Positions 38,007 to 53,645 of a stretch of DNA of 64,000 nucleotides are shown piece by piece. Source of the stretch: Methanofastidiosum sp. (GTDB taxonomy: Archaea > Methanobacteriota_B > Thermococci > Methanofastidiosales > Methanofastidiosaceae). Location of the stretch: NCBI GenBank assembly GCA_013178285.1, contig JABLXD010000001.1, forward strand, positions 1-64,000, written 5' to 3'. Numbering within the stretch: position 1 is the stretch's first letter; every line of letters starts with the position of its first letter. Below the pieces are notes generated by a model. That model saw only the letters and a program-made list of their open reading frames with translations. It was not told the origin of the DNA and searched no databases. A program made the translations under genes and the position numbers.

Positions 38007-38798
38007 TTATTTCCAGAGCCATCCTAGAATTCCTTTATTATTTATTTCTTGATCTGCTAAAGTTTTAAGCCTCAATTGTTCCTGTTCTATGTTTTGAATC
38101 TGTTCCTGGAGTATAACTTTTGTTTGTGGGTCAAAGTCACTTTCTAAAATAAGTCTATTTAGCTCCCTGATCCTTTCTTCATTCCTTATTGTCTCCTGCG
38201 CTATAAGGGCTGCAGATTCACTATCCCCGCCCACAAAGAATTTGACAAATCCACTTCTACTTCTGATCTGTTCTTCTGCCCTAGTTGTAATCTCCAAAGA
38301 ATTTTTAATTTCGTTTGAGATATTAGAAATTTCTCCCTGGTTTTTGCCAAACATTGTAGCAGTTGCCCCCATTGTCTCAACTGCAATTTGGGCCATTACT
38401 TGATTTTGAGAAGAGTAACCTTGAGTAGAGTTTGCTTCTTGAGTTTTTTGCTGAACGATCTCCCTTACCTGTTGTTCCTTGTTTGAAGTTACTTGGTTTT
38501 GATTCTGGATATTTTGAGTTGTTCCTGAAACGTTGCCTTCCTGCTGATTAATTTGAGTTTGCTGTTGAGTCTGTATGTTCGAAGCGTTTCCTTGATTTGA
38601 CGTTTGCTGCTGAACATTCACTTGGTTTGCGTTTTGTGTTGGGGTGATATCTTTATTGCTAGCATTTGTAATATTTTTGGGTGTCGTATTAGAATCAGGT
38701 CCATTTTGATTTTGTTGCCCTTGATTGTTTGGTGCTGCTGCAATATAAGTTGAAGTAAAAAGAAATAAAATAATAAGAAAAATAAAGAGTTTTTTCAT
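38007..38798 (-). CDS. secreted Gln/Asn-rich protein with helical C-terminus
   Basis: 263 residues. The signal peptide LFIFLIILFLFTSTYIAAA is followed by about 95 residues of Q/N/T-rich low complexity without charge, then a helical region (about 115-255) rich in E, Q, I and R, ending NKGILGWLWK. No family recognised. It starts 11 bp after the gene at 38809, so the two form an operon. Possibly a surface or matrix protein. Confidence 0.7.
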   Translation of the reverse strand: MKKLFIFLIILFLFTSTYIAAAPNNQGQQNQNGPDSNTTPKNITNASNKDITPTQNANQVNVQQQTSNQGNASNIQTQQQTQINQQEGNVSGTTQNIQNQNQVTSNKEQQVREIVQQKTQEANSTQGYSSQNQVMAQIAVETMGATATMFGKNQGEISNISNEIKNSLEITTRAEEQIRSRSGFVKFFVGGDSESAALIAQETIRNEERIRELNRLILESDFDPQTKVILQEQIQNIEQEQLRLKTLADQEINNKGILGWLWK

Positions 38799-38808
38799 TT
38801 AATCCTCC

Positions 38809-39639
38809 TTATTTCTTGCCTCCGCCACCGCCATTGCCGCCACTGTTTCCATTGCCATTTCCGCCTGCATTGCTTGAGTTACTCTTAGAGCTGTTGCCTT
38901 TTTCGTCATTGTTCTTGTTACTGTTGTTAGAGTTATTGGTTTTATCTTCCTTCTTGTCTTGGATCATTTCTTTGATTCTTTCTCTTTCTTCAAGTTTTTC
39001 CTGTAACTTAAGCTCATTCTGTTCCTTTAGCTGTGTCCTTGTGGCATCCTTTTCCAAGTATCTCTCAGTTGCCCTAAGTCTTGCTTCAAGTGAGGTCAAC
39101 AATCCAAATGCCCTTCCAGTGTATCCGTCTTCTATTGCTAGCGATATCTTGTCAAGTGTCTTTGATATCTGGCTCAAGTGAGAGTAAACTGACTGGGGTA
39201 GATCAAAACTGTCTATGTAGTAAGATGTTCCATCAACGTCAGTGAAGTAGTACCCATCTTCCTTTTCTTCAAAGTAGAATTCGTATTCACCAAGAGTGTA
39301 CATTCCTTCTTCAGGTGTTTCTTCTTCAGTTGTTGTCTCTTCGCCAGTTTCTTCCCCTGTTGGTTCTTCAGACGGTGGTTCCTCGCCGACTTCTTCTTCA
39401 GTTTCTGGTGTTACGCCGTATAGAACAAATATTTGTTCTATGGTCTCGTAAAATTCATTTGCTTTTTCAGTGAATTTTTCATCGATGACAGAGGGTTCAG
39501 AAGTTACATCTTCGATCTCTTCTGCCTCTTCAAATGCTACATTGCTGATATCTTCAATCGTACTTTCGGCCAGTGCCGGAGCTATAACGCTTAATAGGAG
39601 ACCTATTCCTATTAATAAGGCAATATTTGTAGTTTTCAT
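38809..39639 (-). CDS. secreted low-complexity protein: acidic, coiled-coil, Gly/Asn/Ser tail
   Basis: 276 residues. The signal peptide is LLIGIGLLLSVIAPALAES. Then come an acidic helix, an E/T/P-rich stretch (about 80-112), a small beta segment (YTLGEYEFYFEEKEDGYYFTD), a coiled-coil (about 155-232, SLEARLRATERYLEK...KLEERERIKEM), and a tail of N, S, G and K ending GGGGGKK. No family recognised. It is the first gene of a two-gene operon whose promoter region holds the decamer repeats at 39701-39790; a TATA-like CTTTAAATACTT (minus strand) lies at about 39662-39673. Confidence 0.72.
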   Translation of the reverse strand: MKTTNIALLIGIGLLLSVIAPALAESTIEDISNVAFEEAEEIEDVTSEPSVIDEKFTEKANEFYETIEQIFVLYGVTPETEEEVGEEPPSEEPTGEETGEETTTEEETPEEGMYTLGEYEFYFEEKEDGYYFTDVDGTSYYIDSFDLPQSVYSHLSQISKTLDKISLAIEDGYTGRAFGLLTSLEARLRATERYLEKDATRTQLKEQNELKLQEKLEERERIKEMIQDKKEDKTNNSNNSNKNNDEKGNSSKSNSSNAGGNGNGNSGGNGGGGGKK

Positions 39640-39700
39640 GCAAAAAATAGTTTTTTTTCAAGTATTTAAAGCTTTCTGTGCCTTTATTTCAAAATTAAAG

Positions 39701-39790
39701 CTTTATAATAGTTCATAATAGTTTTTAATCGTTCTTTATTGTTTATTTTGTTTTTTAATTGTTCATAATAGTTTATTTTAGTTTTTAGAA
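39701..39790. repeat. nine tandem ~10-bp repeats, helically phased
   Basis: Nine consecutive decamers on the plus strand, eight of nine starting GTT or CTT: CTTTATAATA, GTTCATAATA, GTTTTTAATC, GTTCTTTATT, GTTTATTTTG, TTTTTTAATT, GTTCATAATA, GTTTATTTTA, GTTTTTAGAA. The period of exactly 10 keeps every repeat on one face of the helix and also phases the T-runs, which favours intrinsic bending. The array lies about 30 bp upstream of the TATA-like box of the operon at 39639(-). Confidence 0.75.
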
Positions 39791-52394: not shown

Positions 52395-53645
52395 TTATTC
52401 GTTGTCTTTGTTCTTCTCTAGTATCTTAAGAATCCTGTCTATGGGAAGTGATTTTGGCTGTAAAGTTAATTCTCTACCGAGGTTTAAGTTGTTATGCTGG
52501 AATTTTGGCCAGGGAGAGTCCGCATAAACACTCATTGATCGTTGGTATGCCGCATAGGTCCATCCTGGGCTACCGCTTAATGCATAGAGATTATAGTCAC
52601 TGCTTCCTACATAGATCGTGCCGTCAGAGCCGATTGTAGGGGATGACCTACCATCATTATGGATGTTCGTCCTCCACTTGTAGTCAGTGCGATTGCCACT
52701 TCCTGTTGGGCTTATCGCATAAAGGTAATTGTCTTTGCTTGCAATGTATATTGTGTCATCTGCACCAATTGCAACAGATGCCGGAATGGCACCACCTGTT
52801 TCAAATGTCCATTTCAAGTCCCCGCTTGTTGGGGTTATTGCATAGAGGTAGCCGTCAGACCCGCCTATATAGATTGTTCCGTCAGTCCCTATTGTAGGAG
52901 AAGCACGACCCATACTGCTACCTGTGGAGTAACTCCATTTTTCAGAACCATCTGGATTTATTGCAAAAACGTTTCCACTCCAGTCCGCTACATAGATTGT
53001 TCCATCCCTACCAACTGCAGGGGACGAGCCAATACTGTCTTCAGTCTCAAATGTCCACTTTTCAGAACCATCTGGATTTATTGCGTAGAGGTAGTAGTCA
53101 ACGCTCCCCACATAGATTGTGCCATCTGCACCAATCGCAGGGGAAGAGCGTGCATAAGAAGTGCTGTCAATATCATAATCCCACTTTTTAGTACCGCTTG
53201 GCGTTAATGCATAGAGGTAGCCGTCATGACTGATAAAATAGATTGTGCCATCTGCACCAATCGCAGGGGAAGAGCAAATGTAACCAATGCTGCCATCATT
53301 ATCAAATATCCATTTTACAGTTCCGTTGGGATTCATTGCATAAAGGCCGTTGTAATAGTGCCCGATATAGATTGTGCCATCCATACCAATTGCAGGAGAG
53401 GAAGCGGTGAAATATTCTCCGCCTGTGTCATATTTCCACTTTAGGGCTCCACTTGGCGTTAATGCATAGATAAATCCGTCATAGTCCCCGAAATAAATGG
53501 TACCGTCTGCACCAATCGCAGAGGAAGTATAAACATAATCTTCTGCAGCATATGTCCACTTTATATCTCCGTCTGCGGCAAGAACCGCTCCAAAAGACGT
53601 TAAAAATATACCAACTAGTAAAATAACTGTTAATCTTTTATTCAT
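52395..53645 (-). CDS. secreted PQQ/BamB-like beta-propeller with C-terminal tail
   Basis: 416 residues. The signal peptide is LTVILLVGIFLTSFGAVLAADG. About eight repeats of about 40 residues (SSPAIGADGTIYFGDYDGFIYALTPSGALKW type) predict an eight-bladed PQQ-like propeller. The end is KSLPIDRILKILEKNKDNE, the clearest copy of the tail. PQQ here is a fold name; cofactor binding is not implied. GGTGATTTTT precedes the ATG. Confidence 0.83.
   Translation of the reverse strand: MNKRLTVILLVGIFLTSFGAVLAADGDIKWTYAAEDYVYTSSAIGADGTIYFGDYDGFIYALTPSGALKWKYDTGGEYFTASSPAIGMDGTIYIGHYYNGLYAMNPNGTVKWIFDNDGSIGYICSSPAIGADGTIYFISHDGYLYALTPSGTKKWDYDIDSTSYARSSPAIGADGTIYVGSVDYYLYAINPDGSEKWTFETEDSIGSSPAVGRDGTIYVADWSGNVFAINPDGSEKWSYSTGSSMGRASPTIGTDGTIYIGGSDGYLYAITPTSGDLKWTFETGGAIPASVAIGADDTIYIASKDNYLYAISPTGSGNRTDYKWRTNIHNDGRSSPTIGSDGTIYVGSSDYNLYALSGSPGWTYAAYQRSMSVYADSPWPKFQHNNLNLGRELTLQPKSLPIDRILKILEKNKDNE

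Follow-up and report, generated by a model that had tools for sequence, protein, structure and literature searches.

Why should a single archaeal promoter carry nine copies of a 10-bp unit, one directly after the other? The window (the whole 64,000-nucleotide stretch of DNA that was analyzed, from a genome of 2.1 Mb in 102 contigs of Methanofastidiosum, a methane-making archaeon) has such an array upstream of a gene for a secreted protein. The original prediction offered three readings: curved DNA, a wrapping site for histone or Alba-like chromatin proteins, or a cooperative operator. We found support for the last of these. The array has a fixed position in its promoter, its letters and unit number are conserved, and it goes with one target gene.

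The array and its promoter

The features of the region, from promoter-distal to promoter-proximal, are as follows.

39701-39790, minus strand: array of nine 10-bp direct repeats (plus-strand consensus GTTyWTWATW), the upstream part of the promoter of 38809-39639
39761-39790, minus strand: triad 3, promoter-distal, GTTCATAATA GTTTATTTTA GTTTTTAGAA
39731-39760, minus strand: triad 2, GTTCTTTATT GTTTATTTTG TTTTTTAATT
39701-39730, minus strand: triad 1, the promoter-proximal 30-bp unit, CTTTATAATA GTTCATAATA GTTTTTAATC
39672-39689, minus strand: conserved block between array and TATA box, AAATAAAGGCACAGAAAG, with BRE-like purines and a AAATAAAGGCA element
39663-39671, minus strand: TATA box, CTTTAAATA, invariant in five genomes
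38809-39639, minus strand: target gene, the first after the array, encoding a 276-aa protein with a signal-peptide-like N-terminus
38007-38798, minus strand: second gene of the presumed operon, encoding a 263-aa Gln/Asn-rich secreted protein

The nine 10-bp units are present, as had been claimed, and they are well beyond chance. Identity at a lag of 10 bp was 0.65 in the array versus 0.42 ± 0.05 in dinucleotide shuffles, and none of 10,000 shuffles was as high. The best 90-bp segment at the array scored 0.66 and was the top period-10 segment in 256 kb of its own genome (the window and ten further stretches, each 12-20 kb long); the runner-up scored 0.56. An equally strong period-10 signal in AT-rich DNA of this genome, named in the original prediction as grounds for rejecting it, was sought and was not found, because the array outranks all other segments in the 256 kb.

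Every unit faces the same way; that is, the array contains direct repeats only. The proposed consensus described the units, except that the first one in the window starts with CTT, not GTT, and there is a 30-bp superperiod on top of the decamers. Identity at a lag of 30 bp was 0.67-0.75 in all four nine-unit arrays that we found, and when the order of the units was permuted, 59 of 5000 permutations gave a triad signal at least as strong as that observed. The 30-bp consensus, GTTyATAATA GTTyATwwTA GTTTTTAATy, is present three times. The units had also been described as exactly in phase with the helix. This is approximate only: by arithmetic, with 10.0 bp per unit and 10.5 bp per turn, the array slips about 150 degrees out of phase over its nine units.

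The array could in principle be an intrinsically curved upstream element that boosts promoter strength without a specific protein. It is AT-rich, and short T-runs recur in it at 10 and 30 bp. However, the bend predicted by a wedge model was 48 degrees over 90 bp, the 72nd percentile of the genome, and 43% of shuffles were as high. Predicted bends in three congeners were between the 44th and 75th percentiles. In addition, T5 tracts occur every 30 bp, not every 10, and the exact letters are conserved, both of which speak against curvature. With a predicted bend this ordinary, the curved-DNA reading did not hold up, and we consider it very unlikely. The array had no Rfam match up to E 1, and the idea of a known RNA element was rejected.

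A spacer of 11 bp separates the array from the AAATAAAGGCACAGAAAG block, which is retained in congeners and in the sister family. The purines in this block probably constitute a BRE, judging from their position. The TATA box is about 23-28 bp from the ATG (39639), so near that the mRNA of 38809-39639 is predicted to be leaderless or to have a very short leader.

The target protein has a confidently predicted, conserved core of beta and helical structure and a disordered C-terminal tail rich in Asn, Ser and Gly; the fold prediction is of low confidence outside the core. Neither a Pfam family nor a PDB match (E ≤ 0.001) was found for it. As noted at the outset, the array precedes two genes for low-complexity secreted proteins, 38809-39639 and the adjacent 38007-38798. 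It is the first of these that the array goes with; the second is absent or replaced in some relatives.

The Gln/Asn-rich protein has a conserved C-terminal part, and its gene adjoins the target gene in some relatives only. Its place after the target is taken by a receiver-like protein (L014 1416-1760) in genome G018, which belongs to another family of the order. Elsewhere in the window, 52934-53350 contains imperfect tandem repeats of about 120-126 bp, probably repeated modules within a gene.

Conservation and specificity of the array

Four congeneric species have nine ungapped units exactly 38 bp from TATTTAAAG, and core promoter and array align without gaps among them. The target proteins of the nine-unit species are 64-88% identical to that of the window. 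Array identity to the window was 0.81, 0.88 and 0.81 in the congeners, versus 0.61-0.65 for the flank beyond the array. Among the 36 units of the four species, position 2 is T in all 36, position 3 is T in 34 and position 1 is G in 25. G018, whose target protein is 42% identical, has two triads (six units) located 37 bp from the same TATA box and containing an exact match to GTTYATAATAGTTYATWWTWGTTTTT. Periodicity in orthologous promoters, on which the original prediction had been staked, is thus kept in four congeners and G018 but is missing from G002 (target protein 41% identical), which has no periodicity upstream of its target gene. The upstream region in G016 ends at a contig end, and this genome was left out of the co-occurrence count of array and regulator. 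The two closest species, taken by themselves, show unexceptional upstream conservation; we did not count it as support because several other promoters equal it.

The array has two of the properties looked for in a cooperative operator: repeats beyond chance and a fixed distance from the core promoter in orthologues. The same comparison bears on the notion that it is a neutral tandem repeat produced by replication slippage. Direct repeats within AT-rich intergenic DNA fit slippage, but this explanation is disfavored: the four species share one unit number and one phase to the TATA box even though their flanks have diverged. Furthermore, the nearest units are not the most alike; units three apart are more similar than those at other lags. 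We regard slippage as scarcely credible.

We searched 21 genomes of the order with a 26-bp core pattern, allowing up to three mismatches. It was found at the array promoter only, plus one match in G013 that is inside a coding gene; that match is therefore attributed to chance and was rejected as a second site. With a sequence model of the array, the four orthologous promoters were the only places to reach an E value of 1e-18 or better; G018 reached 9e-4. The array is a single-gene element. A genome-wide operator or regulon was rejected, there being no further copies in the 21 genomes. Weaker 30-bp matches in the background stretches (L057 18322, L055 13472) looked like chance.

Is the array a histone phasing site? 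As such it would position a row of three histone dimers, 90 bp at 30 bp per dimer, just upstream of the promoter and keep the TATA box either free or occluded. In archaea each histone dimer wraps 30 bp, and the structure of a 90-bp complex with three dimers has been solved (PMC10516927). The superperiod has this length, with three 30-bp repeats in congeners and two in the sister family, and histone genes are present in 20 of the 21 genomes. For that very reason histones cannot alone explain one site: they are in nearly all relatives, whereas the array is at one promoter. The conservation of its letters, position 2 above all, also goes beyond what histone phasing alone needs. Known histone-positioning DNA typically has GC/AT alternation, which the array does not have. 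The part of the histone-wrapping idea that stands is the match between dimer footprint and superperiod; we consider a phasing site unlikely. Wrapping by Alba is unlikely as well. At least one Alba gene is present in 19 of 21 genomes, and none was found in G016 or in the array-bearing G018 (an incomplete genome).

A candidate membrane-anchored binder

The array is probably a sequence-specific, cooperative upstream site (UAS/operator) of 38809-39639 that is bound head-to-tail, and the most likely binder is a DUF7345-DUF7343 protein. We infer that it most likely functions as an activator site.

The candidate comes from G018, in which the gene directly upstream of the array and target, on the same strand, codes for a protein with a membrane helix and a DUF7343 winged helix. 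In the window's genome, its close homologue is on contig C15 (L068 1498-2391), unlinked to the array. This protein matches DUF7345 and DUF7343 and has a single membrane helix, with the winged helix at its C-terminus; its structure model has a secreted domain, a helix at 207-229 and a winged helix at 239-296. As modeled, the candidate is a membrane-anchored regulator with a transmembrane helix and a DNA-binding domain in one chain.

Regulator homologues with E values below 1e-23 are present in all five array genomes, and homologues with E values below 1e-20 are also present in G008, G009, G011 and G014. That is, the regulator is found in 5 of 5 genomes with the array versus 4 of 15 without it (G016 left out). 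In G002, where the target gene is present but no array precedes it, there are distant, weak homologues only; the regulator appears to have been lost from this genome, the sole congener with the gene but without the array. This co-occurrence is a lead, not proof, because the five array genomes are related. Given four genomes with the regulator and without the array, either the regulator has other targets or the link is accidental. It also counts against the candidate that the DUF7343 winged helix is MarR-like and that such domains usually bind palindromes, not direct repeats as here. No array was found upstream of the candidate regulator's own gene.

Some observations concern the regulator gene elsewhere in the order. 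In the f3 genomes G011 and G014, the upstream regions L073 1-228 and L072 1-260 share a well-conserved block, ATAAAAGGTTTTGAATACTATAAAACT...GAACAATAAGAACCTTTTTATGGCAG, without a decamer array. In G011 the regulator gene is directly downstream of a gene for a secreted helical protein. In G009, which does not have the target gene, the regulator gene (L071 1064-1962) is split between two frames that overlap, pointing to decay or an assembly error.

It is possible that the same operator is bound by another, soluble regulator and not by the DUF7345-DUF7343 protein. The link to DUF7343 comes from one neighboring pair and a patchy co-occurrence, and these genomes encode many winged-helix proteins. 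Against a different binder, regulator, array and target lie directly side by side in G018, and regulator and array both appear to have been lost from G002. We view a soluble regulator as a possible but not a probable alternative.

If the array is a cooperative operator, a winged-helix regulator would occupy the decamers in head-to-tail order, with one protomer at each helical turn and a binding unit of probably three protomers (30 bp). It would assemble cooperatively as a filament ending 38 bp upstream of the TATA box, and the TATA-proximal end of this filament could help or hinder recruitment of TFB and TBP. The likely binder would be a one-component regulator, with a signal peptide, an extracellular DUF7345 domain, one transmembrane helix and a cytoplasmic DUF7343 winged helix. 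Being anchored, it would hold the promoter at the membrane and make production of the secreted protein depend on an external signal. A more elaborate version is that the receptor polymerizes head-to-tail on the nine sites and pins the promoter at the membrane near the place of export of its product, assembling by 30-bp triads (each either three protomers or a single unit in alternation with a histone dimer). We think this full version rather improbable.

Relation to known systems

Few archaeal activator sites are known. Here nine units, constant in number and with a 30-bp superperiod, go with one target per genome and have a linked candidate for a membrane-anchored regulator. This makes the array a compact system in which to study how the one-component receptors of archaea work at promoters, and whether the register of regulators is the same as that of 30-bp histone footprints. 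Direct precedent for archaeal 10-bp tandem operators was not found in the literature. Bacterial OmpR/PhoB operators are head-to-tail direct repeats spaced about one helical turn apart, usually two to four units of 10-11 bp. Those operators bind bacterial response regulators, however, and none is linked to the array.

The sites of archaeal hypernucleosomes have a repeating footprint of 30 bp per dimer (PMC10516927), equal in length to the superperiod of the array. Histone binding is genome-wide and weakly sequence-dependent, in contrast to the array with its single site and its conservation of individual letters. ArnR and ArnR1, which act at Sulfolobus flaB, are membrane-anchored one-component HTH regulators, and both ArnR boxes are needed for binding (PMC6396743). 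The candidate binder is also membrane-anchored with a DNA-binding domain, and ArnR acts on a surface-structure gene. ArnR has its HTH at the N-terminus, and its two boxes are inverted repeats, TCGAC-N5-GTCGA. In contrast, the array consists of direct repeats of another sequence, and in the candidate the winged helix is C-terminal and accompanied by an extracellular DUF7345 domain.

The closest known analogue is the repeated EarA boxes of Thermococcales archaellin promoters. EarA boxes (Methanococcus and Thermococcales arl/fla) have the sequence A(C/G)(C/G)TACA(T/C), occur in one to three adjacent copies about 9 bp from the BRE, and are bound by an activator thought to recruit TFB; the longest array in the Thermococcales paper has three boxes (PMC10665913). 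Like the array, they are adjacent short repeats at a fixed distance upstream of BRE and TATA box, and EarA serves one surface-appendage locus. The array differs in having nine GTTyWTWATW decamers in triads, 38 bp from the TATA box, that are not the EarA motif, and its target is no archaellin (the target proteins have no Pfam family). By sequence it belongs with neither EarA nor ArnR boxes. Relative to these systems, the array is a real and conserved single-locus tandem element, a predicted operator that is new in its length and in its arrangement in triads.
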